This document shows, one piece after another, positions 5,380 to 38,644 of a DNA stretch of 64,000 bases. A program made the position numbers and the translations under genes. The DNA is taken from positions 62,001 through 126,000 of the IMG/VR virus record IMGVR_UViG_3300021197_001489; one strand, 5' to 3'. The DNA is from a virus. Position 1 is the first letter of the stretch, and each line of letters begins with the position of its first letter. Below the pieces are notes generated by a model. It did no database searches. It had not been told where the DNA came from and was given only the letters and a program-made list of their open reading frames with translations.

Positions 5380-6780
5380 ATGTCTATAGCGCAAGACTTT
5401 TTCAATATTGTGCAACGTTATGGAAACCGTATAGCAGTGGACGACCCTGAATCAGGTTCAATAACGTATAAAGATTTTGCAGGACTTGTTGCATATTTTG
5501 CAAATCACTATAGACAACTAGGCGATGCTCCACGTATCTTAATACACTTGCCGCAAGGTACTCTTGCTTATGCTGCAATGATGGGCAGTGTAGTATCGGG
5601 CGCAACCTACGCACCTGTAAATGTGCGATCGCCTGTTGCACGCCTTGACATGATAGTAGACCAGTTTACACCTGACTTAATTGTGTCACAGTCAAACGTG
5701 CCGTCAGTTACTGAAAGACACAGTGACTTTGGTATCTCGCCCTCTGATGCAAGTTCTTATGTAATCTTTACATCTGGTTCAACTGGCACACCAAAAGGTG
5801 TCGAAATTTCAAGAACAGCGCATGCCCTGTATGTAAACAACTGGCGTGAGTATACTGGTATTGGGCCTGACGATCGCGTTAGTCAACATCCTGCTATATC
5901 ATTTGATGCATCAGTTTCGGATATATACGGAGCATTAACAAGTGGCGCAACACTGATACCTTTTGGTAGCAATGTCAACCGAATGTTGCCTGGTAGAAAA
6001 ATTAAATCAGCAAAGATATCAATTTGGAACTCAACACCTTCAGTGATTGATCTAATGCTGAACTCAGGAGAACTCGAATCAGACAGTATGCCCGATCTTA
6101 AAATTTTTAGCAGTTGTGGAGAAGCACTTCTGCCCAGACATGTACTGGCATTGCGACACGCTGCACCTGATGTAAAAATTTTTAACGCCTATGGACCTAC
6201 TGAAGCAACAGTTGGAGTTACCTGTGCAGAAATTAAGGACAGTGATTTGATTTACACCAGTTTACCATTAGGCGATGCCTTGCCCGGCAACAGAATCGAG
6301 TTAATCAATGATGAGATTGTGATAGCAGGTGCTCAATTAGCCGAAGGATATTGGCGCGATCCGCAGCAGACTGAGAACAGTTTTCGTGTTGCGGATATTG
6401 GGCAAGGACCAGAAACAGTATACTTTACAGGTGATCTAGCAAAAATTATTGACAACAAATTGTTTTTCTGCGAACGCATAGACCATCAAGTAAAGATAAA
6501 TGGATATCGCGTTGAATTAGAAGAAGTTGCCCGTGCTGTCAGCGACGCAGCAGGATTGCCCACTGTAGCAATAGATTTAGATAATAAAATCTATGCAGTA
6601 GTAGAGGGTAAGGTTGTCAATATTGTGGGACGGAAGTCCGAAATATTACAAGCCACAGCAAAGACACTGGACAGTTATGCAGTACCAGTTGATATTGTTT
6701 GTGTTGATCATTTTCCAAAAACTCTAAATGATAAAGTTGACCGTTCCGAAATAAAAAGGATAATTACAAGCAATAGATGA
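5380..6780 (+). CDS. Adenylation enzyme, DltA-like (amino acid to carrier protein)
   Basis: The 466-residue ANL-family enzyme carries the adenylation core motifs in order: FTSGSTGTPKGVE (~133-145), SFDASVSDIYGALTSG (~183-198), SSCGEAL (~245), NAYGPTEATVG (~269), YFTGDLA (~352), HQVKINGYRVELEE (~371) and the final LNDKVDR lysine. The Asp in the FDAS motif fits binding of an amino-acid amino group. The layout and the CGE cysteine resemble D-alanine-carrier ligase DltA, where that Cys favours D-Ala. The likely reaction is ATP-dependent loading of an amino acid onto the carrier protein encoded next (4-nt overlap). The ATG at 5380 has AAGGA 7 nt upstream. The substrate is inferred, not shown. Confidence 0.82.
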   Translation: MSIAQDFFNIVQRYGNRIAVDDPESGSITYKDFAGLVAYFANHYRQLGDAPRILIHLPQGTLAYAAMMGSVVSGATYAPVNVRSPVARLDMIVDQFTPDLIVSQSNVPSVTERHSDFGISPSDASSYVIFTSGSTGTPKGVEISRTAHALYVNNWREYTGIGPDDRVSQHPAISFDASVSDIYGALTSGATLIPFGSNVNRMLPGRKIKSAKISIWNSTPSVIDLMLNSGELESDSMPDLKIFSSCGEALLPRHVLALRHAAPDVKIFNAYGPTEATVGVTCAEIKDSDLIYTSLPLGDALPGNRIELINDEIVIAGAQLAEGYWRDPQQTENSFRVADIGQGPETVYFTGDLAKIIDNKLFFCERIDHQVKINGYRVELEEVARAVSDAAGLPTVAIDLDNKIYAVVEGKVVNIVGRKSEILQATAKTLDSYAVPVDIVCVDHFPKTLNDKVDRSEIKRIITSNR

Positions 6781-6995
6781 CTGAGAAAGCAAAAATCGTA
6801 CTGGCTGATGCACTTGATTGTGCAGTTGATGATATCCAAGATGGATGGACTCGTGGCACAGGTAGATGGGATAGTTTAGCACATGTGCGATTGATGTTGA
6901 TATTGGAAAGTGAGTACAATTTTGTTATCAATGACGATAATTTTGAAACAGTGAACACAGTCTCAGACATACAGGTAGCAATAGAGGAACAATAA
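6777..6995 (+). CDS. Acyl/peptidyl carrier protein
   Basis: A 72-residue acidic protein with the four-helix carrier layout. The phosphopantetheine site is Ser in RWDSLAHVRL (residues ~30-39), followed by ESEYNFVI and a C-terminal helix SDIQVAIEE. The start ATGA overlaps the stop of the adenylation gene, so the two are translationally coupled and the enzyme most likely charges this carrier. A holo-ACP synthase gene 360 nt downstream could add the phosphopantetheine arm. A D-alanyl carrier (DltC-like) role is possible. Confidence 0.83.
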   Translation: MTEKAKIVLADALDCAVDDIQDGWTRGTGRWDSLAHVRLMLILESEYNFVINDDNFETVNTVSDIQVAIEEQ

Positions 6996-7017
6996 AATGG
7001 GTGCTGGAGGAAATTTT

Positions 7018-7098
7018 ATGCTTATATGGATGCTAGCAATCTGTATAACACCATTCATTATTGATTTTCTTTTAAATAAATGGACAATAGAGGAATAG
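7018..7098 (+). CDS. Tiny single-span membrane protein (26 aa)
   Basis: The frame ATG 7018 to TAG 7096-7098 encodes MLIWMLAICITPFIIDFLLN followed by KWTIEE, one hydrophobic helix with a charged tail. GGAGG lies 7 nt upstream. An ATG at 6997 would give 33 residues but lacks a site. It fills the gap between the carrier gene and the next basic protein and is likely translated. Function unknown. Confidence 0.45.
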   Translation: MLIWMLAICITPFIIDFLLNKWTIEE

Positions 7099-7102
7099 GC
7101 AA

Positions 7103-7360
7103 ATGGGTAAAAAAAGATCAAGAGCATCACAAACCTCCAAAGGCTTGGTGAACAAGAATCCAAACAGTGACAGCAAGCGTGTGCAAAAAGCATTGCGCAG
7201 AGAATATCGTGGCAGCACTGCTGAATTGAATAACAAGATGAAAGCACATCTTAAATTAAAAAATGTTATGCTTACTGTCCCAAATCCAAACACAAACGAA
7301 ACCAACAAGCGTTTTATCCGTGTTTCGTCACGTGAAGTTTGGGGAAGTTCTAAACGATGA
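7103..7360 (+). CDS. Basic hypothetical protein (85 aa)
   Basis: An 85-residue, strongly basic protein (MGKKRSRASQTSKG start; many Lys, Arg and Asn) with no hydrophobic segment and no Cys. It could bind nucleic acid or ribosomes, but no domain is recognised. Its stop overlaps the acpS start (ATGA), tying it to the carrier-protein operon. GAGG lies upstream of the ATG. Confidence 0.6.
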   Translation: MGKKRSRASQTSKGLVNKNPNSDSKRVQKALRREYRGSTAELNNKMKAHLKLKNVMLTVPNPNTNETNKRFIRVSSREVWGSSKR

Positions 7361-7758
7361 TTCTTGGCATTGGCACTGATATTGTCGATGCACGACGCAT
7401 TCAGTCTGAGGTAGATCGGAATTACGATAAATTTACCAAACGCATTTTTTCAGCTGCTGAAATAACCGCCGCCAGAGAATCCAGCGATCAAGCCAACTAT
7501 TTTGCCAAGCGTTTTGCAGTTAAAGAAGCAGTCTATAAGGCACTGAGCGTTTCAGGTACAAGCGGCTGTAAGTGGCATGAAGTAGAAACTGTTTCTGCAC
7601 CAAATGGTGCACCAATAGTCAATCTTACTGGTCGCTGCAAAACAGCACTTGAGACAATGACGCCAAATGGATATACAGCAGATCTAGCCGTATCACTGAG
7701 TGACGAGCCGCCATATGCCTTGGCGTTTATTGTCATTAGCGCCGAACCGAATGGATAA
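7357..7758 (+). CDS. acpS: Holo-[acyl-carrier-protein] synthase
   Basis: A 133-residue AcpS-type phosphopantetheinyl transferase. It starts ILGIGTDIVDARRI with the catalytic Asp and contains FAKRFAVKEAVYKAL (~48-62) with the Mg-binding Glu and conserved Lys. Length and motifs match AcpS, which moves phosphopantetheine from CoA to the carrier serine. Together with the upstream adenylation enzyme and carrier it completes a minimal thiolation module in one operon. Phages rarely carry acpS, so a dedicated partner for the phage carrier is the simplest reading. Confidence 0.9.
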   Translation: MILGIGTDIVDARRIQSEVDRNYDKFTKRIFSAAEITAARESSDQANYFAKRFAVKEAVYKALSVSGTSGCKWHEVETVSAPNGAPIVNLTGRCKTALETMTPNGYTADLAVSLSDEPPYALAFIVISAEPNG

Positions 7759-8457: not shown

Positions 8458-8466
8458 AAAAACTGG

Positions 8467-8509: not shown

Positions 8510-8525
8510 GAAATAGGAGCAAGAT

Positions 8526-14108: not shown

Positions 14109-14773
14109 ACGTAAAACTTGTATCTTATTCAACCCCCACTAACGAGTGGGCATCTGAAGGCCTTGACGATTTACAAGATCTAATCGCATTTTGTGCTAAG
14201 GTATCAAACCCTAGCGCACAGATCAATTTGGAAACAGCTGAACGCTTGCTAAATTATCTAGTAAAACACCAGCACTGGTCACCATTTGAAATGGTCAGTG
14301 CTTGTTTAGAAATTGAAACCACTAGAGATATTGCACATCAGATTGTCAGGCACAGAAGTTTCTCGTTTCAAGAATTCTCACAGCGTTATGCAGAACCCAA
14401 AGAAATGGGCGAAATTTTTGAATATGCTGAAGCACGTTTACAAGACACAAAGAACAGACAAAACAGTCTAGAAACTGAAAATGTAGATTTACATCACGCA
14501 TGGCATGAGCAACAAGAAAAAGTTGTTGAAGCAGCACAAGATGCATACGAGTGGGCTATAGAAAATGGTATTGCCAAAGAACAAGCTCGCAAGGTATTAC
14601 CCGAAGGCTTAACTAAAACACGTTTATACATGAACGGGACAATTCGCAGTTGGATTCACTACATTGATTTGCGGGGAGCTAACGGTACACAAAAAGAACA
14701 CATGGAGATTGCACATGCCTGCGCAAAAGTCATCAAAGAAGTCTTCCCGCAAATCCAAAACTACACAACCTAA
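14105..14773 (+). CDS. thyX: Flavin-dependent thymidylate synthase
   Basis: A 222-residue ThyX. The signature RHRSFSFQEFSQRY (~83-96) matches RHRxxSxxxxSxRY, and the C-terminal half has the LPEGLTKTRLYMNGTIRSW segment. ThyX makes dTMP from dUMP using FAD, NADPH and methylene-tetrahydrofolate. Phages carry it to supply thymidine for DNA replication. The following epimerase gene overlaps its 3' end by 59 nt. Confidence 0.95.
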   Translation: MNVKLVSYSTPTNEWASEGLDDLQDLIAFCAKVSNPSAQINLETAERLLNYLVKHQHWSPFEMVSACLEIETTRDIAHQIVRHRSFSFQEFSQRYAEPKEMGEIFEYAEARLQDTKNRQNSLETENVDLHHAWHEQQEKVVEAAQDAYEWAIENGIAKEQARKVLPEGLTKTRLYMNGTIRSWIHYIDLRGANGTQKEHMEIAHACAKVIKEVFPQIQNYTT

Positions 14774-15734
14774 AAACAAAATTCTAGTCACTGGCGGACT
14801 TGGTCTTATTGGTCACAATGTTGTAGCACAACTGCAAGCCAGTGGTCACAACGTACAAATTATAGATGCACTAACAACTTACGGTTCAATTGATCGAGAT
14901 GAGTTAGAATATCTATACAACGAACGTCTTACTAAGATCAACAAAAACACACAGATTTACAAAATTGACATTGCTGATGAAGCTGTAGAAGAAATATTCA
15001 GCAAGTTTAAGCCTGACTATGTTATTCATCTTGCCAGTTTTCCAAGAGAAAAAGCTGTTAAGAATAACCCAGTAGAAGCAGCACACACTATGGGGCAAGG
15101 ACTTGCTCGTGTGGTCGATTGTGCAATGCGCTGCAAAGTGAAAAAGTTGATGTATGCCAGTAGCAGCATGGTTTACGGCGACTTTGAAGATGGCGTCAAA
15201 GAAGATGCACAACTCAATCCCAAAGGTGCATATGCTATTTGGAAGATTGCTGGTGAACAACTGGTAAAAGACTACCATCGCCAATATGGATTGCCCTATG
15301 CAATTGTGCGTCCCAGTGCAGTGTATGGTCCACTGGACGTTGGTGATAGAGTTATTGCAAAATTTTTAATTGCTGCTATGCGCGGTAGAACTCTCAATGT
15401 AAATGGTGCAGACGAAAAGCTAGACTTTACCTATGTAGAAGACTGTGCTGCTGGAATTATTGCTGCAACACTTAGCAAACACACAGGCACTTACAATATC
15501 ACAAAAGGCCACAGTTGCACTCTGGAGCAAGCTGCTAACCTTGCAGTCAAACTGGCAGGCAGCGGCACAGTTAATGTTGTTGGAAAAGATTCAGACTTTC
15601 CAAGTCGCGGTGCATTAAACATAGATGCAGCTAAAGCGGACTTCAATTACAATCCCACAGTGGACATCCAAAAAGGATTTCAAAAGTATTATAAATGGCT
15701 TACAAATTCCAGTTACTGGAAAGAGAAAATCTAA
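14715..15734 (+). CDS. NAD-dependent epimerase/dehydratase (extended SDR)
   Basis: From ATG 14715 the protein is 339 residues. After a basic 20-residue leader (SSKKSSRKSK) comes the NAD-binding TGGLGLIGHNV, then a catalytic YAIWK (Tyr and Lys, ~174-178) and VRPSAVYGP. The family converts nucleotide sugars (UDP-glucose 4-epimerase type). The start lies 59 nt inside thyX, which is unusual, but the Rossmann motif leaves little room for a later one. It begins a run of sugar-pathway genes (aminotransferase, oxidoreductase) on the same strand. The exact sugar is not predictable. Confidence 0.85.
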   Translation: MPAQKSSKKSSRKSKTTQPKNKILVTGGLGLIGHNVVAQLQASGHNVQIIDALTTYGSIDRDELEYLYNERLTKINKNTQIYKIDIADEAVEEIFSKFKPDYVIHLASFPREKAVKNNPVEAAHTMGQGLARVVDCAMRCKVKKLMYASSSMVYGDFEDGVKEDAQLNPKGAYAIWKIAGEQLVKDYHRQYGLPYAIVRPSAVYGPLDVGDRVIAKFLIAAMRGRTLNVNGADEKLDFTYVEDCAAGIIAATLSKHTGTYNITKGHSCTLEQAANLAVKLAGSGTVNVVGKDSDFPSRGALNIDAAKADFNYNPTVDIQKGFQKYYKWLTNSSYWKEKI

Positions 15735-15737
15735 AAA

Positions 15738-16817
15738 ATGAAAATACCTTTTACAGACTTGCAGAGTCAGTATCAAGAATGTAAAACTGAAATTGATGCA
15801 GCAATTGAACATTGTTTGCATACCAATAGTTTTATTACTGGCAAAGACACAACACTTTTCGAACAAGATATGATTGCATACACAGGTGCAGAAGCCTGTA
15901 CAGCATGTGGTAGTGGCACTACTGCTCTGCAAATATCTCTTAAAGCATGCGGTATTGGTCCTGGTGATGAAGTTATCACTGTAAGTCATACTTTTGTTAG
16001 CACGCCAGAAGCAGTTTGCACAGTTGGTGCTACGCCTGTGTTTTGTGATGTCGACGAATACAGTATAATAGACATTGCACAAGCAGAAAGTTTAATCACA
16101 GAACGCACCCGAGCAATACTGTGGGTTGACCTATACGGGCAAACTCCTGATGTTGATGCAATTGTTGCACTGTGTAAAAAGTACGGGCTGTACAGCATTG
16201 CAGATGCAGCACAGAGCTTTGGTTATCAATACAAAGGTCGCCGGGTTGGGAGTCTGGCGGACTTAACTTGTATCAGTTTTAATCCAGTGAAAAACTTGGG
16301 TGCGATTGGCGATGCTGGCTGTGTTACAGGACGCAAGGACTTGGTTGATCTGGCAAGATACTATAGTAATCACGGTAGAGATACAAAGTATGTGTACGAA
16401 TACTTGGGATATAACGCTCGCATTGATAATATTCAAGCTCGGGTAGTGCAAGCAAAACTTCCATACTTGCAAGGCTGGTTGGATCGCAAGTATGAAATTG
16501 CGCAATACTACCATAAAGAACTAGCAGGATATTATATTACGCCAATAGAACATGATTGGGGGCAGCACAGTTACTATGTGTATGTTGTTGAGCATGTGGA
16601 TCGTGATAGAGTGAGAACAGCATTGCTTGAACAAGGCATTCAAACAAATATTCACTATGCTAATCCAGCACACAGTACGCCAGCGTTTGCACCGTGGCAT
16701 CGCAGTTTGCCTGTCACAGAACGTAAGAGCGCAAATATTTTCAGTATACCAGTGTACCCGCACCTAACAGATCAACAAGTAGAATACATTGCGGAAAAGT
16801 GTAAGGATGTAGCATGA
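15738..16817 (+). CDS. DegT/DnrJ/StrS-family PLP aminotransferase
   Basis: A 359-residue sugar or cyclitol aminotransferase. The N terminus has the FTDLQSQYQECKTEI pattern, ACGSGTTALQISLKA (~57-71) binds PLP phosphate, DAAQSFG (~156) holds the pyridine-binding Asp, and FNPVKNLG carries the Schiff-base Lys at 185. These enzymes move an amino group from Gln or Glu to a keto-sugar or keto-inositol. It is 3 nt after the epimerase and overlaps the oxidoreductase by 4 nt. With that oxidoreductase it could oxidise then aminate a sugar or inositol. Confidence 0.9.
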   Translation: MKIPFTDLQSQYQECKTEIDAAIEHCLHTNSFITGKDTTLFEQDMIAYTGAEACTACGSGTTALQISLKACGIGPGDEVITVSHTFVSTPEAVCTVGATPVFCDVDEYSIIDIAQAESLITERTRAILWVDLYGQTPDVDAIVALCKKYGLYSIADAAQSFGYQYKGRRVGSLADLTCISFNPVKNLGAIGDAGCVTGRKDLVDLARYYSNHGRDTKYVYEYLGYNARIDNIQARVVQAKLPYLQGWLDRKYEIAQYYHKELAGYYITPIEHDWGQHSYYVYVVEHVDRDRVRTALLEQGIQTNIHYANPAHSTPAFAPWHRSLPVTERKSANIFSIPVYPHLTDQQVEYIAEKCKDVA

Positions 16818-22474: not shown

Positions 22475-22773
22475 CAGTCCCAGCCTAAAGCAAATTTTGT
22501 TTCCTCAGGGATCATATCTGGTCCAAAAGGAGGATCCCATACTAATTCACGTTCTACTTTATTCACACCTTCAACAGACATTGCAGCATCATATATATTC
22601 TGACATATTTGATCTGCAAAAGGACACATCATACTTGTAAGTGTGTGCTTTATAATTACGCTTTCTGCTGTGCAATCTATGTGATATATTAATCCAAGAT
22701 CATATACGTTCACACTAATCTCAGGATCATATACTTCACGCAGTGCGCCTATAACTTTCTCTTCTAACTGCAC
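22471..22773 (-). CDS. MIP18/DUF59-family Fe-S assembly protein
   Basis: The 100-residue protein starts LEEKVIGALREVYDPEISVN and has VYDLGLIYHIDC and MMCPFADQI, the signature of the MIP18 (DUF59, SufT/PaaD-like) family. These act in iron-sulfur cluster assembly or insertion; the Cys in MMCPF is the usual reactive residue. It is the last gene of the long - strand operon that holds five radical SAM proteins, which need 4Fe-4S clusters. A supporting role for them is the natural inference. Confidence 0.85.
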   Translation of the reverse strand: MQLEEKVIGALREVYDPEISVNVYDLGLIYHIDCTAESVIIKHTLTSMMCPFADQICQNIYDAAMSVEGVNKVERELVWDPPFGPDMIPEETKFALGWDC

Positions 22774-24804: not shown

Positions 24805-24906
24805 CTATTTGTAAATGAAAGGATCGCGCTTGCGCAATTCTTTGAGTTTCTTGCGATATCGTATCTCAAGTTTAATTTTGTTAATTAAGTTTTTAATCCA
24901 TTTCAT
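24805..24906 (-). CDS. Tiny basic helix protein (33 aa)
   Basis: The - strand frame 24906 to 24805 encodes MKWIKNLINKIKLEIRYRKK followed by a tail ending KRDPFIYK, an amphipathic, very basic helix. Its ATG overlaps the stop of the preceding gene (ATGA). I recall similar short ORFs ending DPFIYK in marine T4-like phages. It might bind membrane or RNA; unknown. Confidence 0.5.
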   Translation of the reverse strand: MKWIKNLINKIKLEIRYRKKLKELRKRDPFIYK

Positions 24907-27273: not shown

Positions 27274-27670
27274 TTACCCTGCGACGAAGTTCACTGCTGG
27301 AGAATCTATGATCACGCTTGTTAAAATACAGTGCAATGTCGCGCCGCTTGCAAATTTCTTTGCCTGTGAAGTCTTTTTCTCTATATTCATCTCCAAGTAT
27401 ACGCACATCAATGTGATACATGCTCAATATGTCTTTTAAGTCTTCTTCGGTTGCATAAGGAATGATCTCATCCACATACTGCACTGCTTTGAGTTGTGTG
27501 TAGCGTTCTACCACTGTTTGTATTGGGCGATTCTTTTCAGGACGGTCGGCACTAGGATCAGTTTGCAATCCACAAATAAGATAATCGCATTGTTCTCCGG
27601 CATCGCGTAGCATCTGTATGTGGCCGCTATGCAGCATGTCAAATGCGCTACAAGTAAATCCTACTTTCAT
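27257..27670 (-). CDS. Cytidylyltransferase-like protein (TagD type)
   Basis: The 137-residue nucleotidyltransferase has GFTCSAFDMLHSGHIQML with the HxGH nucleotide-binding motif at ~14-17, RPIQTVVERY at ~46, and SSSELRRR at the C terminus in place of the usual ISTT motif. Length fits glycerol-3-phosphate cytidylyltransferase or heptose/phosphosugar nucleotidyltransferases. It would activate a phosphorylated building block as a CDP (or NDP) derivative. Overlaps with both neighbours put it firmly in the operon. Confidence 0.83.
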   Translation of the reverse strand: MKVGFTCSAFDMLHSGHIQMLRDAGEQCDYLICGLQTDPSADRPEKNRPIQTVVERYTQLKAVQYVDEIIPYATEEDLKDILSMYHIDVRILGDEYREKDFTGKEICKRRDIALYFNKRDHRFSSSELRRRVNESGI

Positions 27671-27912
27671 TTTTTTCTTGATCCTATCAGTTTGTCTGTG
27701 TGGGTGTCCAGCATGTGTTGCTCAATGTCGATTATCTTCTCACTTTGTATAATATCGATTATTGTATTGGTCAAATCAACATCCTTTTGCAAAAAGAACA
27801 TTTTCTTTGTAAGCTCTTCCAGTTGTTGTTGGTAGTATTCTAACTCTTTTTCTTTGCGAATCTTGGTTTCGATCATTTCGCCAATCAAAGCAATTTTACC
27901 GTCTAGTGTCAA
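27667..27912 (-). CDS. Coiled-coil protein (81 aa)
   Basis: An 81-residue protein with a long heptad-rich helix (KEKELEYYQQQLEELTKKMF to ~45) and no Cys. It overlaps the cytidylyltransferase start and the cupin stop by 4 nt each. It may hold enzymes of the operon together; no family is recognised. Confidence 0.55.
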   Translation of the reverse strand: MTLDGKIALIGEMIETKIRKEKELEYYQQQLEELTKKMFFLQKDVDLTNTIIDIIQSEKIIDIEQHMLDTHTDKLIGSRKK

Positions 27913-28250
27913 TGTGATCTCCTGCCGTCAAATACACAAACAAAGTAACAACCTGTTGGTCCGGCATGTACGCGGTGAAACCAACCATCAGGGATAAGCA
28001 CAATGTCGCCAGGGCCTACTGTAGTGTTATGGTCTTTCCCATTGGTATCAATTAACTCAATCCAGCCTGCACCTTTAACAAAGTGATAAACTTCTTCTTG
28101 TCCAGCATGGGCATGACCGCCGGTCTTCTTGTCAGCTTTTAGGTCGGTACTACTAACCACAAGGTTGTTCAGGGAGTTGTTATCCACAACACGATAACGG
28201 TCGTCTTCTTTTACAACTTTGCCACCTATATTCTGTACATTATATTTCAT
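27909..28250 (-). CDS. Cupin-domain protein (113 aa)
   Basis: The single cupin domain shows HAHAGQEEVYHFVKGAG (motif 1, metal-binding His and Glu, ~46-62) and PGDIVLIPDGWFHRVHAG (motif 2, ~79-96). Cupins of this size include sugar epimerases/isomerases and small-molecule binding proteins. The context suggests a sugar or amino-sugar intermediate. GGAG lies upstream of the ATG. Confidence 0.82.
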   Translation of the reverse strand: MKYNVQNIGGKVVKEDDRYRVVDNNSLNNLVVSSTDLKADKKTGGHAHAGQEEVYHFVKGAGWIELIDTNGKDHNTTVGPGDIVLIPDGWFHRVHAGPTGCYFVCVFDGRRSH

Positions 28251-28259: not shown

Positions 28260-28436
28260 CTAGAACGCATCCATTATAAGTTCTTGTATACGTTTTTCTA
28301 AGTCGTCGTTTTCTTGTTCAATCAATGCAACCTGGTTGCGCAGTTCTTCAATGCGATCTTTGCGCTGATGCATAAGATCGCGCAGCTCATTTAACACTGT
28401 GTTTAGTCTTGCTGCTAGTTCTGCTGGATCGTCCAT
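28260..28436 (-). CDS. Small coiled-coil protein (58 aa)
   Basis: The - strand frame 28436 to 28260 encodes MDDPAELAARLNTVLNELRD and continues as one acidic-basic heptad helix to LIMDAF. Its ATG overlaps the stop of the nucleosidase gene (TAATG), a common coupling signal. It is the second short coiled coil in this operon and may pair with the one at 27667. Confidence 0.55.
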   Translation of the reverse strand: MDDPAELAARLNTVLNELRDLMHQRKDRIEELRNQVALIEQENDDLEKRIQELIMDAF

Positions 28437-28999
28437 TATATCAATTCCAATTGGTCATTGTCTAGCACTGGCTGTTTTTCCAGTACTTGTCTTTTAAACT
28501 GTTCCGCACCTTTGTGTACATTGTCTTTCCAGTCATCTCCGTCTCCGCTGTCTGAGATAAATTTGTAGCAGTCAAAGGGCAATCCAAACTTGGTAGAAAC
28601 TTTTGCTAGTGCGTAGGCTTCCATTTCACACACTTGATAGTTAATATGCGGCGTGCTAAAACTGTCACCGGTTCCACAAACGTACAAGCTGTCATGTTTG
28701 GTATCACACACAATCATTTGTTCTTCATCACCAGGTGACACATACAATGGCAAGCCCAGTGGTGTACAATCCATATCGCGCTCAATTACTGCACTAATAC
28801 CAATCAGTTTGCCTACCATTTCTGGTAACCCTCCAGCACTACCATAGTTTACCACTTTACTGTATAGATTATTATAGCACAGTTCTGAAGTCAATGCAAT
28901 GGTAGCATTTACCTTTCCTACACCTGTAATTAACTTTTTATATCCTAGTGGCAGCGGGCCAGGTAATTCTTCTTCTAATGCAACTACTACCAGGATCAT
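28436..28999 (-). CDS. Nucleosidase/phosphorylase-family protein (MTAN-like)
   Basis: The 187-residue protein has the purine-nucleoside phosphorylase fold: MILVVVALEEELPG start, TGVGKVNA (~25-32), NYGSAGG (~50-56) and the substrate site VCEMEAYALAKVSTKFGLP (~124-142). In MTA/SAH nucleosidase the same EMEA holds the ribose, and the FISDSGD segment supplies the catalytic Asp. It is shorter than typical MTAN (~230 aa), missing part of the middle. MTAN also removes 5'-deoxyadenosine, the inhibitory by-product of radical SAM enzymes, four of which are encoded just upstream in the operon. Confidence 0.78.
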   Translation of the reverse strand: MILVVVALEEELPGPLPLGYKKLITGVGKVNATIALTSELCYNNLYSKVVNYGSAGGLPEMVGKLIGISAVIERDMDCTPLGLPLYVSPGDEEQMIVCDTKHDSLYVCGTGDSFSTPHINYQVCEMEAYALAKVSTKFGLPFDCYKFISDSGDGDDWKDNVHKGAEQFKRQVLEKQPVLDNDQLELI

Positions 29000-30198
29000 T
29001 GAGGTCCCCCATATTCAATTGCTTCGGCTAGTTCGCTGTGATGGCTACGCAAGTCTTGACTTCTGCGCCAGTCAACATCTGCTACTTTCATGCGCAAGAT
29101 ATTGCCATCAAGGCTAGCACCACCGTTTATAAAGTCAATGATATTGTCAAACTCTTTTCTGTGGTATGCAGTTACGTCAGCATCTTGCAAACGTTTGATA
29201 GCTACTTTCTTTGCTGCTTCGGGCAGTGTGCTTACACTGTGATAGTATGCTTCGTGCAGCATATTCCAATACACAAAGTCAAACTTGCGTGTGTCTATCC
29301 ATTTCGCAAGTCCTTCGAGGTACATTACATTGAACACATTAACTGTAGAGCATACCTGTAATTGCATGTTGTTGCTCCGGTCGCGCATTGCTTCAAAGCT
29401 ATCGATGTTGCTGTTTACTTCAGCCCATACAGCATTGGCTCTTTGATATTCAAATCGTTCGTCAACGTCGTCGATTGAAAAAGCAACTTCTACCAGTTTG
29501 AAGTGCTGCCAAATTTCTTCCGCATGCTCTGGATAGTGTGTGCCGTTTGTGTTGTAGTGTATTTCAATATTGCCAGCAATGCCTCTATCTATACAGCGTT
29601 TTAGTAATTCAAAGTGTTCTTTGATCATAAATGGTTCACCGCCAGTAAACTCCAAGTAGCGAATTTGATCCATCATAGGATCCACTGTATTCCAAAATTC
29701 TACATTCTTTCTTGGCCACGCGCCTTTTTGTAACATCTCGTAGTGAAAGCTGTCTTTGCCTTCAAACTTGACTTCTTCGGTTGCAAATGTACTGCTGCTC
29801 CAACTTCCGCAAATACGACATTTGAGGTTACAGATGTTGCCCAATTTAAAATCAATGAATATAAGCGGTTTAGCATCTTGTGTCCATTCTGTGTCTGGGA
29901 CAATGTGTTTGAGTCTATCCAGTGTGTGCATGCGTTTGCTTGTGCGACCGCTTCGTTCTTCATTCCAGCATTTCCTACAAGTTTGCGGCTTCTTGCCATC
30001 CAAGAAGTCTTGCCTAAGATTATTCATGTAATTACTGTGATGTATTTCATTTAGTGTGTTGGTATTGAGATCATATTTGTTACCATCAGTATCCTTGATC
30101 TCATCTTCTGCCAAACAACAAGGACGAGTTGTGCCAATTGGGCTTGTTTCAATACTGATCCAAGGAAGCACACAAAACTTATCGTGTGGTATTTTCAC
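28996..30198 (-). CDS. Twitch-type radical SAM protein 2 (400 aa)
   Basis: NICNLKCRICGSW places the radical SAM Cys at 123, 127 and 130, followed by LEFTGGEPFMI. N-terminal Cys at 9, 27, 74 and 77 match the operon-wide twitch pattern (C-x17-C, then C-x2-C). The FCVLPWISIE and RPCCLAEDE stretches are shared with protein 3, its closest relative here. It overlaps the nucleosidase gene by 4 nt and protein 3 by 4 nt. Substrate unknown. Confidence 0.86.
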   Translation of the reverse strand: MKIPHDKFCVLPWISIETSPIGTTRPCCLAEDEIKDTDGNKYDLNTNTLNEIHHSNYMNNLRQDFLDGKKPQTCRKCWNEERSGRTSKRMHTLDRLKHIVPDTEWTQDAKPLIFIDFKLGNICNLKCRICGSWSSSTFATEEVKFEGKDSFHYEMLQKGAWPRKNVEFWNTVDPMMDQIRYLEFTGGEPFMIKEHFELLKRCIDRGIAGNIEIHYNTNGTHYPEHAEEIWQHFKLVEVAFSIDDVDERFEYQRANAVWAEVNSNIDSFEAMRDRSNNMQLQVCSTVNVFNVMYLEGLAKWIDTRKFDFVYWNMLHEAYYHSVSTLPEAAKKVAIKRLQDADVTAYHRKEFDNIIDFINGGASLDGNILRMKVADVDWRRSQDLRSHHSELAEAIEYGGPQ

Positions 30199-31481
30199 GT
30201 TAGGACTCCTAGCTCTGGAATTGCATCCAGGATATTTTCTTTTCTAATACTGTCGAGTTGATTGGTTTTCTGCCAAAATTTTTCAATAAGTGCAGTATTA
30301 TCTGTGCTGTTCATATACTGCAATGCACTTTCAAATCCTACTGTTGCTCTATTAAGTTGGTCCAACGGACGCAACCATTCTAAATGGTCACGGTACTTTT
30401 GTTCAATTTGATCTTTGTATGCTTGCGGCGCAATATCGATGCGCAAGTACGCAGGGTCTTGTAAAATATTTACATTGAGGTCTTGCGGCTTTAGCAATCC
30501 TTTATCAACCCAATCTCTGTGAAAGTCAGGCAAGTGCAGTGCATTCATAATGCTTAGTGTTGGAGAAATATAAAAGTCTACCTTGGGACAGATTTCCATC
30601 ATGGTAATTCTATTCTGTTCAATCTCTTTCCATTTAGTTCCTTTGCGTATATACTCGCCGTGTATACCCGAGGCGTCTAGGCTGGCACCAACGGCTACAC
30701 TGTCAAACTTTTTCCAGTAGTCAAATACCAGTCGGTCTTTGAGTTTGGTTTGTGTAAAGTTTGTGTTATAGATAAGACGAACATCGAAGCGTCCTCTGCG
30801 TTCTAGTTCTTCCAGTATAACATAATGCTCGTCCATCATGCAAGGCTCGCCGCCTGCAAAGTAAATCTGCTCTACGTGATCCAAGTGTTCAAACAACTGA
30901 TCCATCATATCAGTCTCAAAACGCCCAGCATAGTTTAACGGCTTGTTTTTCTTTGCCCATTCAGGTCCAGCTAGTGCTACTTGATCTTTGTACCAACTTG
31001 AACTAAAGATATGACCACAGCTTCGGCAACTTAAATTGCACAAGTTTGAAAAGCGAATGTCCCAGTAGGTCATTTCAAAATCGTCATATCCACCGTCTGC
31101 TTGCGTTTCAAAAACTCTGCTAATGTGGTGTCCATGGTGCTTGTTTGCGCTTTGACGTCCTGAAAAGAAACCTGATTTTTCTTGCTCATAACAACGTCCG
31201 CATGCAGGATTGTGTTGCTCCGTTAGCATGTCTACACGCAATTGTTTTTGCTCAGGTGAGTTCCAAATTTCCTTCATGGTGTTATTTTTGCAGTTGCCCA
31301 CTTGCCCTACACCCATTTCAGCATGACAACAAGGATATGCTTCGCCTGTTGGATAAGCATGTAGGTGTATCCAAGGATACATGCAAAACGTTTTGCTTTC
31401 TGTTAGCAGTGTACGTTCACGCGGGTTTAGATCAGCAAGCGCAATTTTGATTGGCTCGCTACTGTTGTAATTATAGCTCAT
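30195..31481 (-). CDS. Twitch-type radical SAM protein 3 (428 aa)
   Basis: Radical SAM motif NLCNLSCRSCG (Cys 148, 152, 155) followed by IYFAGGEPCMM. N-terminal cluster Cys at 33, 51, 94 and 97, with FCMYPWIHLHAYPTG and YPCCHAEMG. After the second Cys pair the EIWNSPEQKQLR segment is typical of SPASM/twitch proteins that act on peptides or sugars. It overlaps proteins 2 and 4. Confidence 0.86.
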   Translation of the reverse strand: MSYNYNSSEPIKIALADLNPRERTLLTESKTFCMYPWIHLHAYPTGEAYPCCHAEMGVGQVGNCKNNTMKEIWNSPEQKQLRVDMLTEQHNPACGRCYEQEKSGFFSGRQSANKHHGHHISRVFETQADGGYDDFEMTYWDIRFSNLCNLSCRSCGHIFSSSWYKDQVALAGPEWAKKNKPLNYAGRFETDMMDQLFEHLDHVEQIYFAGGEPCMMDEHYVILEELERRGRFDVRLIYNTNFTQTKLKDRLVFDYWKKFDSVAVGASLDASGIHGEYIRKGTKWKEIEQNRITMMEICPKVDFYISPTLSIMNALHLPDFHRDWVDKGLLKPQDLNVNILQDPAYLRIDIAPQAYKDQIEQKYRDHLEWLRPLDQLNRATVGFESALQYMNSTDNTALIEKFWQKTNQLDSIRKENILDAIPELGVLT

Positions 31482-32823
31482 TGTACCAATCCTTTATAGT
31501 GGGAAATGCTGTGCCAAAGTCTTTGCCTCTACGTTCATCGTACTGTGTGTAAAATTGTTTAAAGTCGTTATGCAATTTAGGCATATCAAACGTATCACTG
31601 TGCGGAGTTTTAACAACATCAAGATAATCAATTAAGCGTTCAGTTTGATTGATTTCGTGTTCGTGAATAAGCTCACTGTCTCTGTTTGTGTCTAACCAAG
31701 ACTGCAATCGATTCTTGTGCAGTGTGCGCAGTTCATCGGGCAGTGCTAATGGTGATTGAAAACTGGGAAAACGCAATATGTTTAGTGTAAAGCTAGGAAA
31801 GTCTCTGCCATATTGCTTTTTAAATTGCATCAAGTAATCCAAAAACTCTGGCAGTGATTCCAAACATAGTGCGTTAATGGTACACATGTTGTGCAAGCCG
31901 CGCAGTTTGCCTGAGCCTGCTAGCAAATGCATGTTGCGTGTCCAGGTGCCCCACTCTAATCCGTCACGAATATATTCTGCCTGGGTGCCTAGACTTTCAT
32001 TGCTTGTATAGATGTCAAGTGGTGTGCTGTCTGCCCTGTCTAACAATTTCAGTATGTCTGCGCTCTCCAATCCAAGATTGCTGTTAATAGCAATAGTGGT
32101 TTTGCTTGCACCTTTGTTTTCTTTAAACCAGTCTAGTAACTTCCATAGGTGCCCGCTCATAGCAGGCTCACCGCCGGTAATACGCAACTCGTCGAGTGTC
32201 TTGTGTAAATCGCTTTCCCACCATTTAAAAAATGCTTCAATGTAAGGATTGGTTTCATTGTATCTGTAACGCTGCGAACTATCATGTTCATGCGTAAAGT
32301 GATTGCGGCCATCACTGATTAAATTTTCATATCCGCCATGCTTTTTTAAATCTTTAACCCAAGTGGTACTGAACGCTGGATTACAATAGCTGCAAGCAAA
32401 CTGACAAGTTCTGTCAAATGCTATTTCCAGTGTTTTGAGATCAACATCTTGATTGTAGTCAAGTTCGTGTGCTGCTTGTAGGTCTTGATCGGTGTAGATA
32501 TTGCTTTTGTACACTCTATCACTTATGTTATCTCGACCAATATCCTCAATCTTCCAGCAGTATTCACAACCACCAGGCCGTTCGCCGCACTGCATTTGTC
32601 GGCGTTCTTCTTTTTTCTGTGGCGTATTATGTAGAGCTTTTGGATTTGCTTCTACTTCCTCAACACTTACATAGTGCGGAAGTGGATGATGGCAACTAGT
32701 AGTCATGCCGCTGCCTAACCATATGGTAGCATTGTACCACTTGGCACCACACATGCTCGAACTAAGTGGATCGAGAACCCGTTGTTTATATTGTAAATCA
32801 GTTTCGTTGTTTTGCTTTGGCAT
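31471..32823 (-). CDS. Twitch-type radical SAM protein 4 (450 aa)
   Basis: Radical SAM motif RTCQFACSYCNPAFS with Cys 140, 144 and 147, then LRITGGEPAMSGHLW. N-terminal Cys at 25, 44, 86 and 89. It shares the MCGAKW, NPKALHNT, CEYCWKIED and FSTTWVKDL stretches with protein 5 in equivalent places, so the two are paralogues. The SGNH gene lies between them. It ends 10 nt into protein 3. Confidence 0.86.
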   Translation of the reverse strand: MPKQNNETDLQYKQRVLDPLSSSMCGAKWYNATIWLGSGMTTSCHHPLPHYVSVEEVEANPKALHNTPQKKEERRQMQCGERPGGCEYCWKIEDIGRDNISDRVYKSNIYTDQDLQAAHELDYNQDVDLKTLEIAFDRTCQFACSYCNPAFSTTWVKDLKKHGGYENLISDGRNHFTHEHDSSQRYRYNETNPYIEAFFKWWESDLHKTLDELRITGGEPAMSGHLWKLLDWFKENKGASKTTIAINSNLGLESADILKLLDRADSTPLDIYTSNESLGTQAEYIRDGLEWGTWTRNMHLLAGSGKLRGLHNMCTINALCLESLPEFLDYLMQFKKQYGRDFPSFTLNILRFPSFQSPLALPDELRTLHKNRLQSWLDTNRDSELIHEHEINQTERLIDYLDVVKTPHSDTFDMPKLHNDFKQFYTQYDERRGKDFGTAFPTIKDWYNEL

Positions 32824-32831: not shown

Positions 32832-33743
32832 TTACTTCCTTGCAATTTGGTCGAGAATTTTATTTGCGTAAACTTGATGCTGTTGCGGTCCTGGATGTAC
32901 ACCATCAAAACCAAAATCAATGTGCTGAGTTTGATATGGTAATTGCACATACTCTGGCAGAGTATTGATTAGCACTATGAGATTTTCACTGCATAGTAGT
33001 GGCACTAATAATAATCTGGCTTGAATTTTATTACAAAAGTTTTTCACTTGGTGTATGGCTATCACAGATTTATACAGCGATGTTTCACTGAATGTATCTC
33101 TATTCCAAGACATGGTATTTTCCTTACCATTGTTCCATTCAGATCGTCTCAGTTCTTGTGTGATGCCCCATAATACTATATCATTTTTGTTAATATTAGA
33201 TCTTAAGATTTGATCAGCATGGAATTCGTTACTGCTACCACCCTTTGCAAGATCTACCAATGGAAGTTGTAATTGATTAGCAATTAATACTGGAAACCTT
33301 TGATCATTGTTGACACCTACACCTTTGGAATAAGAACATCCTGTTACAAATAAATTACATGAGCTGTTTTTTCTCGTGTCTAATAGATCACAATAGTGTA
33401 TGCCTAGTGAGGAGTAGTCTCCAATAATATGTTTATCTACTAATAGCGATAAAAAATATTTGGTAATATTACAAGAATTAGCTACCCGATACGTCCCATC
33501 ATCATCTGACCAAACCTTGGGTGGTTCATACACAATAGTATCTGCATGGCACATTACAGAATACAAAGCTGCTTCAGTGTTGGTAATTTTAGGTAGATCC
33601 GCCATTGACGTGTGAAATACTACATCATTGGTATAGGTAGTTTCCAGATATGTTTGGTAGTTTTTACCAGTCAACAACACACTGTTTGGTCCTGCAATGT
33701 CTGACAGATACTGCCCACAATCTCCCACGTATAGTTTTATCAT
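32832..33743 (-). CDS. SGNH-hydrolase-like protein (303 aa)
   Basis: The 303-residue protein has an N-terminal ~125 residues without known domain, then FVTGCSYSKGVGVNNDQRFP (~134-153), a GDS-like nucleophile block with Ser in GCSYS, AKGGSSNEFHADQIL (~167-181) with the Gly and Asn of blocks II/III, WGITQELRR, and DGVHPGPQQHQVYA near the C terminus with the Asp-x-x-His pair. This is the SGNH/GDSL ester hydrolase or acyltransferase fold. It could deacylate or acylate a sugar. The DltD transferase of D-alanylation also has this fold, but similarity to it is not established. Confidence 0.72.
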   Translation of the reverse strand: MIKLYVGDCGQYLSDIAGPNSVLLTGKNYQTYLETTYTNDVVFHTSMADLPKITNTEAALYSVMCHADTIVYEPPKVWSDDDGTYRVANSCNITKYFLSLLVDKHIIGDYSSLGIHYCDLLDTRKNSSCNLFVTGCSYSKGVGVNNDQRFPVLIANQLQLPLVDLAKGGSSNEFHADQILRSNINKNDIVLWGITQELRRSEWNNGKENTMSWNRDTFSETSLYKSVIAIHQVKNFCNKIQARLLLVPLLCSENLIVLINTLPEYVQLPYQTQHIDFGFDGVHPGPQQHQVYANKILDQIARK

Positions 33744-35179
33744 GCTAATGCTTTGGCCAATTGTTCACACTCTTTCCACCATGTTTCCATTTCAGGAAAT
33801 GTGTTAATAAAGTTAGTGCCTCTGCGTCTATCATGTTCGTTGAAAAATCTGTAGAAGTCTGCTTTGTTGCGATTGATGTATTCTGGATCTAGTTTTTGCC
33901 CATCGCGCATCCAGGCAATGTCTCTGTCCAGCCTGTTCACTTCATAGTCTTTGAATCCTTTGAAGCGTGTAGATTCAGTCTCCAAATTCTGCTGTGTCCA
34001 AGTTTTAAGCATCTCCAGTTCATGTACATAGCTCTCAGGTAATAACTGTAAACTTTGCCATGTTGGTGTGCGTAGCACAGGTGTATCAAACCAAACTCTT
34101 TGGTAGGTTTTGCTGTATATTTGACGCAAGCCTAAAATAGCAGCAAACAAATCTTGTAATGTGGTCACACTTAAATTGTTCATTGTTATAATAAATGTTA
34201 CACTGTTACGCTCTGGTATGTCATTGAGAAACTGGTTTACTCTGTCCCACAACAGATTAAAGTCAAGCCCATGACGCATGTATTCTGCTTGTGCAAACAT
34301 GCCGTCCAAGCTCACATACTGCATAAAGTGTTCAACAGTGCCTGGTTTTTCGCAAAGCATTGTAACATATGCTTTGTACTTTTGCCACAGTTTTTCATCT
34401 ACACTAAAGTTTGATGTCGTACTCAGATGCAGTTTGCTAGATGGATTCATCATCACATGATCAAATACTTTGTAGGTATTCTTATCCATCATTGGCTCAC
34501 CACCGGTCATTCTAAAGTGTTCAAGTTCCGGATACAGTGTAGGCCACCATTCCCAAAATGCTTCCACATATGGGTTGTGTTCTCTTGCCGGTATTGGTCG
34601 ACGCTCACCTTGAAAGTGTGCAGGATCGTTGTGCGGAGTTGATGTTGGCCAAGCGCCTTCGCGCTGTGCTTCTGCCATCCAACTTGAACTAAACTGTGGG
34701 CTGCAATAACTGCAACTTAGATTGCATGCACTGTTAAAGTCTACTTCAACATAACTTGGTGTAATATCTTGATCCCAGGGTGCATTTTTAATAGTTTCAA
34801 AGTCTTTGATTGCCCATGGTTCTCCACTACGATAATGACGGTCGCTTAGTTTGCCGTTGTCCTCCATCTTCCAACAATAGTCACATTCGGGCGGACGAAC
34901 ACCTTCTAACATCAATTTGCGTTGTTGCTTTTTGTGTTCTGTGTTGTGCAATGCACCAGGGTTGGTTTTGATTGCTTCAGCATCTGCTCTGTGCAACGGC
35001 GGATGATAGCAACTGTTGTTCATGCCAGTTGTTAGATGCAGACTAAGTTGCTTCCATTTAGCCAAACACATGCTAGGACTTACAGTGTCTAGTTTTTGTT
35101 GTGCAATTTCGGCGTCACTAAGGAACTTGCTTTTAAAGTCGGCATCAACTTCGTCGCCTTTATTTTGTTTGATTACCAA
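33740..35179 (-). CDS. Twitch-type radical SAM protein 5 (479 aa)
   Basis: Radical SAM motif SACNLSCSYCSPQFSSSW (Cys 152, 156, 159), then FRMTGGEPMMDKNTY. N-terminal Cys at 38, 57, 99 and 102. It shares NPGALHNT, ECDYCWKMED and SDRHYRSG with protein 4. Both end with a similar tail (GTNFINTFPEMETWW here; GTAFPTIKDWY in protein 4). It overlaps the SGNH gene by 4 nt and the glycosyltransferase-like gene by 7 nt. Confidence 0.86.
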   Translation of the reverse strand: MVIKQNKGDEVDADFKSKFLSDAEIAQQKLDTVSPSMCLAKWKQLSLHLTTGMNNSCYHPPLHRADAEAIKTNPGALHNTEHKKQQRKLMLEGVRPPECDYCWKMEDNGKLSDRHYRSGEPWAIKDFETIKNAPWDQDITPSYVEVDFNSACNLSCSYCSPQFSSSWMAEAQREGAWPTSTPHNDPAHFQGERRPIPAREHNPYVEAFWEWWPTLYPELEHFRMTGGEPMMDKNTYKVFDHVMMNPSSKLHLSTTSNFSVDEKLWQKYKAYVTMLCEKPGTVEHFMQYVSLDGMFAQAEYMRHGLDFNLLWDRVNQFLNDIPERNSVTFIITMNNLSVTTLQDLFAAILGLRQIYSKTYQRVWFDTPVLRTPTWQSLQLLPESYVHELEMLKTWTQQNLETESTRFKGFKDYEVNRLDRDIAWMRDGQKLDPEYINRNKADFYRFFNEHDRRRGTNFINTFPEMETWWKECEQLAKALA

Positions 35180-36798: not shown

Positions 36799-37567
36799 AA
36801 CATTCTCCTAACTTTTGTGCTAGTTCTTTGATTTGATAGTGTACAAAACCTTGCTGGTTATGTCCATTGATGCGTATTACCCCATTGGATATTTCCCAAA
36901 CTAACTCTTTGGTCCAATCTTCAGCACTGGTGCCAAGCATTGCTGGTTTCATGTGTACAATCTGCGGTCCTACTCCTGGCGTAACAAAATCGTCACTGTT
37001 TAGTGCGTAGATTAAATCTGTACTGGCCTCTTCGTCCTGCCCGCCCTTGATGTTCTGTTTGATCTCATCCCAATTTTGAAAACACTGTTTTACATTGTTG
37101 AAAAACTGCAATGCTTCAACACTCTTTCGCCAATAGGTAACAGCATTGTAAACATCAGGTAGATTGTTATAGTCAAATATTTTTCTGTAACGACGACTTG
37201 TAGCAGTGACATTGTGAAAGTTCCGTGCGCCAGTACTTATCCACAGTGGCTTGTTGCGATACAGTGTCCACCAATGATCAATTGGACCGCTGACTATCAT
37301 ATCAGCTTCAAGTTTTACAGTTTCGTGAAACGGACTAGCATGATACACTTGCCAGTCAGTGCTCCAGCCACCCGAGTTACCGTGTGGGAAAGGTCTAACA
37401 TAATCAAACAGTGTATTTTTATAATCTTCTTGATCAGTGATTAAACAAATTTTTGCATCTGGGTGCCAGTACTTGAGGCTCTTTGCAAGTGTTTCTGCAC
37501 ATGCAACATAATCAGCAGATTGTGATACTCCGGCAACAATCAAGTAACCTCTATCTGCTTCATACAT
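36785..37567 (-). CDS. Glycosyltransferase family 8-like protein, paralogue 1
   Basis: The 260-residue protein has the GT-A nucleotide-diphospho-sugar fold: a Rossmann-type start GYLIVAGVSQSADYVACAE, ICLITDQEDY, KLEADMIVSGPIDHWW (EADM in the place of the metal-binding DxD) and NAVTYWRKS. The next gene has the same length and order, so they are a tandem pair. Probably adds a sugar to a glycan or protein; the acceptor is unknown. Confidence 0.67.
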   Translation of the reverse strand: MYEADRGYLIVAGVSQSADYVACAETLAKSLKYWHPDAKICLITDQEDYKNTLFDYVRPFPHGNSGGWSTDWQVYHASPFHETVKLEADMIVSGPIDHWWTLYRNKPLWISTGARNFHNVTATSRRYRKIFDYNNLPDVYNAVTYWRKSVEALQFFNNVKQCFQNWDEIKQNIKGGQDEEASTDLIYALNSDDFVTPGVGPQIVHMKPAMLGTSAEDWTKELVWEISNGVIRINGHNQQGFVHYQIKELAQKLGECYGSC

Positions 37568-38342
37568 ACAATTTCTCCAGATAGCTTTTACACATTATGT
37601 GCAAATCGTGATTTTTAACACAAATACGCTTTTTGAGATTGTTAACAGTATACGTGATCCACCAGGTGTTGTCAATCTGCTCAACCTCCAATTCAGTGTC
37701 TACATTGAGAAGTGGCCATGGAATTTCGCATTGATGTGGATGAGTGTTTCCGTTACACAAAAGCAGCGCAATACTAAGTGCATAGTCATTGCGAAACTGG
37801 CGAATGTTGAATCCAAATAGGTTTGCATAGTGCTGATAGTTTTGTTCTACCATTTTCCATACTGCAAAAACATCTTGTGTAAACTGACTGTTACGATCAA
37901 AAATAACAACAGTGGCCCACCACATGTGCGTATTTTTTGTGCCAAATGTTTGCAATCTTGGTTCGAGATGTAAACTTTGAACACGTCTATGACACAAAAA
38001 TGGCTGTGAACTTTCTAACATAGGCAACAGGTCTGCACTGTTAAGCATGTAGTCTGTGTCAACCAACAGTGTCCTATCATAGGACGAAAGATCAAGAGCT
38101 GCATTACGGCCAAAGTTAAACCATGTAGTTGCTGCATTGCGATCAGCAAAAAATCTTCGATTGGTATCTGGACCGCGTTCAACTATAACTTCTTTGTTGA
38201 AAATATCACAGTCAACAGTTTTGTCGGTGACCAGGGTCACTGGAATATCTAAGTACTTTTTTATTCGGGTAGCACATTCAACAGCAAGTTTGGTGTATTT
38301 TATTTCGCTGTCAAAAGCAAAGAGTAAAGCACCTGTGGTCAT
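37560..38342 (-). CDS. Glycosyltransferase family 8-like protein, paralogue 2
   Basis: The 260-residue partner of the previous gene: LLFAFDSEIKYTKLAVECA, VTLVTDKTVD, and RTLLVDTDYMLNSADLLPML with a proper DTD metal motif at ~94-96, then MWWATVVIFDRNS. The conserved metal motif makes this the more likely active member of the pair. Overlaps of 8 nt and 4 nt with its neighbours show one transcript. Confidence 0.7.
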   Translation of the reverse strand: MTTGALLFAFDSEIKYTKLAVECATRIKKYLDIPVTLVTDKTVDCDIFNKEVIVERGPDTNRRFFADRNAATTWFNFGRNAALDLSSYDRTLLVDTDYMLNSADLLPMLESSQPFLCHRRVQSLHLEPRLQTFGTKNTHMWWATVVIFDRNSQFTQDVFAVWKMVEQNYQHYANLFGFNIRQFRNDYALSIALLLCNGNTHPHQCEIPWPLLNVDTELEVEQIDNTWWITYTVNNLKKRICVKNHDLHIMCKSYLEKLYV

Positions 38343-38644
38343 CTTTGTTTAGAAATTTCTTCATACTCAGCTTGCCAAGCATTCATTTGCTCTTGCCAAC
38401 GCTGCATTGCTAACTGTTTCAGCACTGCTGGCTCTACACTAACAGGAGTGTCATAGTAGTCTTGAAATACTGAATCCCTCCCAAGGAATAAATCACACAA
38501 CACAATTAACTCTGGCGATGCTTTCCACATGCCACCATTGTGTGCAAAAAGCATTTTGGCTTGATATGTTTCTCGCAACACCTGTCTTGCTTGTTGATGA
38601 TCAAATCTTGTTTTTATATTTTGGCTGAGTTTGTCTGTTTGCAT
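38339..38644 (-). CDS. Conserved phage hypothetical protein (101 aa)
   Basis: A 101-residue helical protein (QQARQVLRETYQAKMLFAHN, then LIVLCDLFLGRDSVFQDYYD). It is the first gene of the - strand operon and has no recognised domain. I see no strong promoter directly upstream; the hairpin at 38663 lies between it and the fibre gene. Confidence 0.58.
   Translation of the reverse strand: MQTDKLSQNIKTRFDHQQARQVLRETYQAKMLFAHNGGMWKASPELIVLCDLFLGRDSVFQDYYDTPVSVEPAVLKQLAMQRWQEQMNAWQAEYEEISKQR

Follow-up and report, generated by a model that had tools for sequence, protein, structure and literature searches.

What does a giant phage do with a block of sugar-modifying, amidino- and carbamoyl-transferring and radical S-adenosylmethionine (rSAM) genes that lies next to its tail genes? 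We addressed this question for a stretch of 64,000 nucleotides (the window), which comprises bases 62001-126000 of the virus record IMGVR_UViG_3300021197_001489 with a total of 316,012 bases. The source record is a jumbo myovirus; its baseplate wedge protein (55411-58818) is approximately 34% identical to counterparts in Atu_ph07, Phosso, SCTP-2, CBB and PA5oct-type jumbo myoviruses. A first-pass annotation had read positions 5380-38644 as a pathway for an amino-, guanidino- and carbamoyl-decorated glycan, which might mask virions, modify DNA bases or change the host surface. Searches against Pfam, NCBIfam and the PDB confirmed the gene types it had named: an aminotransferase, a dehydrogenase, amidino- and carbamoyltransferases, a cytidylyltransferase, a cupin, five rSAM proteins, glycosyltransferase (GT)-like genes and a thiolation module were all found. 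The island is flanked by MoxR, VWA and ThyX genes on one side and by baseplate and tail genes on the other. The MoxR, VWA and ThyX genes within the proposed interval are unrelated phage genes separate from the island, and the unit analyzed here is 14664-38644 (approximately 14.7-38.6 kb, about 24 kb) plus the adjoining tail genes.

The reading that we favor, with some reserve, is that the island is expressed late and modifies the virion tail of the phage itself; the glycan, its chemistry, the timing of expression, the target and the benefit are what we infer from gene content and gene order. That a virion tail protein is modified in the cytoplasm is favored by the shared run with tail genes, mass spectrometry-flagged relatives in PA5oct, a Ser/Thr-rich candidate acceptor, soluble enzymes and a structure model for one GT. 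The genes from 63972 down to 22471 form an almost unbroken co-directional run that starts at the baseplate, with a largest gap of 289 bases; most of the island genes in this run overlap by 4-17 bases, and terminator-like sites in it showed no excess over shuffles (11 versus 16). The candidate acceptor is a virion tail protein (38717-39634, minus strand) with a Ser plus Thr content of 33% and no Cys. Its homologues (n = 46) have a median Ser plus Thr content of 30%, and most neighbours lie at 9-19%, about one-third of the level of the 38717 protein. Next to it, 39778-41133 (minus strand) encodes a tail-fibre or virion structural protein with homologues in PA5oct, Atu_ph07 and Phosso. The PA5oct relatives of an upstream giant protein, of the 39778 protein and of the 38717 protein are each annotated with electrospray ionization tandem mass spectrometry evidence; for the 38717 protein the similarity covers the N-terminal 185 residues (30% identity). 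In PA5oct these genes are not followed by an rSAM/GT island, and Paride has the same layout as PA5oct.

In a simple hydropathy analysis, the GTs, rSAMs and sugar enzymes of the block were all free of membrane-like segments. As expected of a virion glycosylation island, the locus has predicted soluble GTs whose genes are linked to virion genes, with a GT-A fold supported for one of them. This protein, GT35173 (35173-36099, minus strand), is predicted to adopt the GT-A fold in an AF2 model (pLDDT 81.6), and Foldseek matches it to nucleotidyl- and glycosyltransferases, including HddC and the PBCV-1 capsid GT 2p6w, with E values of only approximately 1e-3. It was found in 61/61 loci.

Conservation was assessed on approximately 150 metagenomic contigs from two scans, which gave 80 and 73 loci and onto which the window proteins were mapped; a gene entered the presence counts only if island genes lay on both sides of it. 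The conserved order starts with the tail-fibre gene 39778 and continues with 38717, h38339, GT37560, GT36785, h36448, GT35173, rSAM5, an insert, rSAM4, rSAM3, rSAM2, a second insert, rSAM1, 24903 and the carbamoyltransferase gene CarbT. Convergent to CarbT are the genes for the amidinotransferase-like protein, GT20280, GT19228, GT17664, the DegT aminotransferase, the epimerase and ThyX. All five rSAM genes and GT35173, GT36785 and GT37560 occur without exception in the contigs covering their positions. What is inserted between the rSAM genes is in most cases a GT-like gene, an epimerase gene or another rSAM gene. Among loci recovered via rSAM3 alone, CarbT was present in 26/36 and the amidinotransferase-like gene in 14 of the 19 long enough to tell. 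The deepest branches (L139-L146, L148, L159) all keep the five rSAMs, lack CarbT and have no mapped amidinotransferase. Median identities are 62-68% for the rSAMs and 56% for CarbT, and only 28% for DegT. A conserved core set against turnover of the sugar-nucleotide enzymes points to a fixed core with a changing sugar supply, and this pattern supports virion modification, as do the rSAM cassettes in the tail regions of CP220 and of Atu_ph07 and Phosso. Of the proposed glycan-type pathway, the gene set thus holds up as a conserved block; the membership of the thiolation module does not.

The most constant part of the block is the set of five twitch rSAM proteins (the pentad), all on the minus strand: rSAM1 (25951-27273; NF033640 score 292 bits; 116/116 spanning loci), rSAM2 (28996-30198; 338 bits; 114/114), rSAM3 (30195-31481; 406 bits; 100/100), rSAM4 (31471-32823; 288 bits; 73/73) and rSAM5 (33740-35179; 303 bits; 65/65). 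The scores of 288-406 bits exceed the curated NF033640 cut-off of 170 bits, and the CxxxCxxC motif is present in each of the five and in all their orthologues of at least 40% identity. In a tree calculated after a genome scan, the five phage rSAMs fall into five separate clades, each with chromosomal proteins of Bdellovibrionota as sisters (L179, L180, L190, L228). One of these loci, L179, adjoins rplU/obgE and is therefore part of a cell chromosome; all five rSAM types are represented there in one run, in which the island GT, CarbT and DegT profiles found no match. Orthologues of rSAM1 are rare in Bdellovibrionota (6/129 and 4/144 genomes in two surveys); five of six loci that were read have an rSAM2 relative beside the gene, and some of them rSAM4 as well. 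The pentad genes appear to be inherited together and, in some genomes, to do without the glycan genes. Four to five rSAMs matching the pentad profiles are also encoded by Vibrio phages K566/K567.

Further rSAM genes were seen outside the pentad. The same phage carries single twitch-type rSAM genes at approximately 51.6, 198.2 and 214.3 kb of the record (L167, L168 and L169, respectively); GT20280/GT19228-like genes are located near the first two, and L168 also has methyltransferase-like and cytidylyltransferase-like genes. An Elusimicrobia metagenome-assembled genome (L187) contains six tandem rSAM3-like genes, several of which code for more than 650 amino acids and are probably fused to other domains.

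The sugar genes are encoded at the far end of the island. A sugar-nucleotide epimerase/dehydratase of the NAD-dependent type (14664-15734, plus strand; PF01370, 2.6e-46) was found in 56/60 spanning loci. It is followed by a DegT/DnrJ/EryC1/StrS sugar aminotransferase (15738-16817, plus strand; PF01041, 1.8e-98), which varies among relatives and has scyllo-inositol transaminase 7b0d, QdtB and WbpE as its closest solved chains. The Gfo/Idh/MocA dehydrogenase (16814-17683, plus strand; PF01408) is an accessory present in 10/81 spanning loci. CarbT (22764-24362, minus strand; PF02543 and PF16861) is an O-carbamoyltransferase of the NodU/TobZ type, present in 94/106 loci, with PDB matches to the carbamoyltransferase 7xb6, novobiocin carbamoyltransferase, GdmN and TobZ.

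The amidinotransferase-like protein (21449-22474, plus strand; AGAT/StrB/SxtG superfamily) has no Pfam match and was recognized by its similarity to human AGAT in the PDB (7e-15). It is present in 94/112 loci and has the highest median identity of all island proteins (78%). The catalytic Cys and His and the substrate-binding Asp residues of AGAT (Cys407, His303, Asp305 and Asp170) align with the conserved residues Cys326, His187, Asp189 and Asp94. Asp254 of AGAT is the third member of the catalytic triad. By ungapped extension it aligns with Ser141, which is invariant in the alignment, and the same position is Asp in the amidinotransferase of phage CP220 and Cys in a cyanophage relative. Judged from its sequence, the enzyme likely transfers an amidino group. 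The guanidino decoration proposed at first is unproven, given the Ser at the Asp254 position and an enzyme not mapped in the deepest branches. Relatives of the amidinotransferase-like and carbamoyltransferase genes also occur in single-cell-derived viral contigs (MH319724, MH319727 and MH319720, Marine virus AG-345-D19).

Five additional proteins are putative GTs. GT36785 (36785-37567, minus strand; 59/59 loci), which belongs to a PHROG of unknown function, and GT37560 (37560-38342, minus strand; 55/55 loci) carry an inferred label. The same applies to GT19228 (19228-20286, plus strand) and GT20280 (20280-21452, plus strand), which have an 'EKTFK' motif in 76/85 and 79/82 homologues, respectively. 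GT17664 (17664-19229, minus strand; 79/81 loci) was labeled by its likeness by eye to GT35173. The conserved protein 24903 (24903-25961, minus strand) is syntenic with rSAM1; its AF2 model (pLDDT 84.9) has no fold match in the PDB and matches only uncharacterized phage proteins in BFVD. An Atu_ph07 counterpart of 24903 was considered and rejected: the BFVD match has a poor root-mean-square deviation, and hhalign did not confirm the candidate gene at the homologous site.

The remaining genes are accessories on the minus strand: a SufT/MIP18-type FeS-assembly protein (22471-22773; PF01883, 7e-16; 14/115 loci), a cytidylyltransferase-like protein, CytT (27257-27670; PF01467; 10/118), a cupin not found in relatives (27909-28250; PF07883; 0/118), an MTAN-like nucleosidase (28436-28999; PF01048 and nucleosidase models; 19/118) and an SGNH-hydrolase-like protein without a family match that was recognized by motif reading only (32832-33743; 0/78).

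If the virion tail is the target, the epimerase and the DegT aminotransferase, optionally with the Gfo/Idh dehydrogenase, would make an amino sugar, which the soluble GTs would put on a tail protein in the cytoplasm, the 38717-39634 protein being the first candidate. CarbT, and perhaps also the amidinotransferase-like enzyme, would decorate the sugar, and the five twitch rSAMs would catalyze a series of radical reactions, either on this glycan or on the protein that bears it. Where present, the SufT-like helper would supply Fe-S clusters, and the MTAN-like nucleosidase could remove the 5'-deoxyadenosine released in the rSAM reactions. The modification may serve receptor binding, shielding or stability. 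It is possible, if doubtful, that the pentad is a relay, inherited as a set and common to aquatic jumbo phages and Bdellovibrionota chromosomes, that installs an undescribed tail-fibre modification, either a radical-tailored glycan or a peptide.

Several observations weigh against virion glycan modification. For GT36785, GT37560, GT19228, GT20280 and GT17664, no annotated counterpart was found in the libraries or the PDB, and the GT20280 and GT36785 profiles matched no solved structure. One hydrophobic window was seen in the SGNH-like accessory. A high Ser/Thr content is common in tail fibres that carry no glycans, and late operons of phages acquire unrelated genes. A Pfam survey of bacterial neighbourhoods found no enrichment of glycan context. 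Finally, the chromosomal rSAM orthologues of Bdellovibrionota mostly have no glycosyltransferases nearby; the pentad may therefore be an independent multistep unit with another substrate.

The last point leads to the rival that survives best, which we nevertheless consider rather unlikely: two separable systems could share one site, with the pentad modifying a tail peptide or protein (by crosslinking, epimerization or methylation) and the glycan genes acting otherwise. Besides the Bdellovibrionota orthologues, this would fit Phosso and Atu_ph07, in which the homologous tail genes are followed by peptide-maturase-like rSAMs next to a protein with the C-terminal sequence CH[ST]SCHASCH[NS]SRSRR. 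It is at odds with the three GT genes and 24903, which remain syntenic with the pentad throughout the phage clade, and with the repeated insertion of GT-like genes between rSAM genes; moreover, none of the listed window open reading frames looked like a Cys-rich precursor peptide.

An altered host-surface polysaccharide, or a small metabolite secreted to block rival phages, is less probable still. Polysaccharide and carbamoyltransferase clusters of jumbo cyanophages are interpreted in this way (PMC7824862), CarbT relatives are common in cyanophages, and some of the Bdellovibrionota copies have, by eye, a gene resembling a sugar nucleotidyltransferase or GT2 nearby. The block itself contains no membrane flippase, polymerase or lipid-linked transferase according to simple hydropathy, and its genes come after tail genes. 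Because no GT or rSAM is membranous, the host surface, the last target named in the first-pass annotation, is less likely.

Modification of phage DNA bases, for example to 5-carbamoyloxymethylcytosine, is highly improbable: although phage carbamoyltransferases can act on 5-hydroxymethylcytosine (PMC8670742) and glycosyltransferases modify DNA in other phages, the island sits with tail genes, and a DNA target is disfavored because PF00303 (thymidylate synthase/dCMP hydroxymethylase) has no match in the possibly incomplete 316-kb record, in which a positive control was detected, and was not found in 8/10 related records. In the MetaGPA study, in which a phage carbamoyltransferase makes 5-carbamoyloxymethylcytosine, a carbamoyltransferase together with a thymidylate-synthase-family gene occurred only in modified contigs, and unmodified DNA was the source of those carbamoyltransferases that were flanked by glycosyltransferases (PMC8670742).

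The thiolation module, which had been counted as a pathway member, consists of an AMP-binding adenylation (A) domain protein (5365-6780; PF00501, 1e-46), a carrier protein of 72 amino acids (6777-6995; weak PF00550) and a phosphopantetheinyl transferase (7357-7758; PF01648). Among 18 related phage records (several of them 290-364 kb), the A-domain gave a single match, which was partial (2.7e-5), and none over its full length; a scan of viral contigs found it in just two short ones, both times at the same place before MoxR. Because the A-domain is not conserved with the island, the module was left out of the unit. A stand-alone combination of these three genes (5365-7758) is rare among relatives.

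In the same part of the window, a tRNA-Ser with the unusual anticodon ACT is located at 5272-5361. The gene at 1911-2783 (minus strand) resembles, by eye, a class II aminoacyl-tRNA synthetase/asparagine-synthetase-type catalytic core, and 367-1500 encodes a Ring_hydroxyl_A protein (catalytic domain of Rieske-type oxygenases), here in a phage. Host assignment from genome bins was tried and rejected, since the phage contigs fall into mutually inconsistent bins of Betaproteobacteria, Verrucomicrobia, Rickettsiales and Pelagibacter (L174-L177).

Should the favored reading hold, widespread uncultured giant phages devote about 24 kb to the chemical tailoring of their own tail, and a radical-chemistry route would be added to virion modification. 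No substrate of such a pentad was found for any organism, and NF033640 would gain a testable function. Cultured entry points are the Vibrio phages K566/K567 with their twitch-like rSAMs, CP220-type phages, and Atu_ph07 and Phosso, which have other rSAMs at the homologous site.

The island can be compared with several known systems. All five rSAMs score above the NF033640 cut-off, and the island differs from this family of unknown function in that five members form a fixed set, each position with a clade of its own. With aminoglycoside and aminocyclitol clusters it shares a DegT protein near scyllo-inositol transaminase and the amidino- and O-carbamoyltransferase families; in contrast to these, it is embedded in virion genes, and neither a 2-deoxy-scyllo-inosose synthase nor an inositol-phosphate synthase was found among the window open reading frames scanned with Pfam. 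The jumbo cyanophage clusters likewise contain GTs, cupins, sugar nucleotidyltransferases and carbamoyltransferases, but their makeup varies between relatives and no rSAM set is described in the passages of PMC7824862 considered here. Virion glycosylation in mycobacteriophages (Freeman et al., 2023, cited in PMC12619734) is an outcome of the kind proposed here, glycans on virion proteins; PMC12619734 mentions no rSAM set for it, and the glycan of the island is putative.

In Atu_ph07 and Phosso, rSAM genes are located downstream of the homologous giant and tail-fibre genes, but the rSAM/SPASM proteins are peptide-maturase-like. Direct homology to the pentad was rejected, since there was no profile match at E 1e-3 and only a weak hhalign match over the rSAM core. 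Just downstream of the tail-fibre gene homologue, Atu_ph07 AUZ94952 (L254:37119-38009) and Phosso gp289 (L253:40415-41335) have a conserved Cys/His-rich C-terminal tail (FCHSSCHASCHNSRSRR and YCHTSCHASCHSSRSRR, respectively). Situated beside several peptide-maturase-like rSAM genes, they are candidates for a modification of a phage protein of the type found in ribosomally synthesized and post-translationally modified peptides.

The closest parallel comes from the Campylobacter phages CP220 and CPt10, whose interchangeable cluster encodes a glycine amidinotransferase along with five rSAM proteins (Timms et al., 2010, PMC2853527). In CP220 this cluster follows a baseplate lysozyme and PAAR gene at a distance of a few genes; nucleotide-diphospho-sugar transferases are among its products. 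Five rSAM genes, an amidinotransferase and sugar-transferase genes after tail or baseplate genes are thus the same composition in the same position, and the CP220 amidinotransferase is homologous to that of the island (1e-13). The rSAM and GT proteins, in contrast, are not homologous by the island profiles (best rSAM hmmsearch E value 8.6e-4), the CP220/CPt10 cluster has no annotated carbamoyltransferase or DegT gene, and the genome has 177 kb. In view of this cluster and of the cyanophage carbamoyltransferase/sugar clusters (PMC7824862), the first-pass statement that the locus resembles an aminoglycoside-type cluster more than any known phage module was too strong. The parallels with CP220/CPt10 and K566/K567 indicate that the combination arose or was exchanged on more than one occasion; this speaks for a shared role and reduces the novelty of the island.

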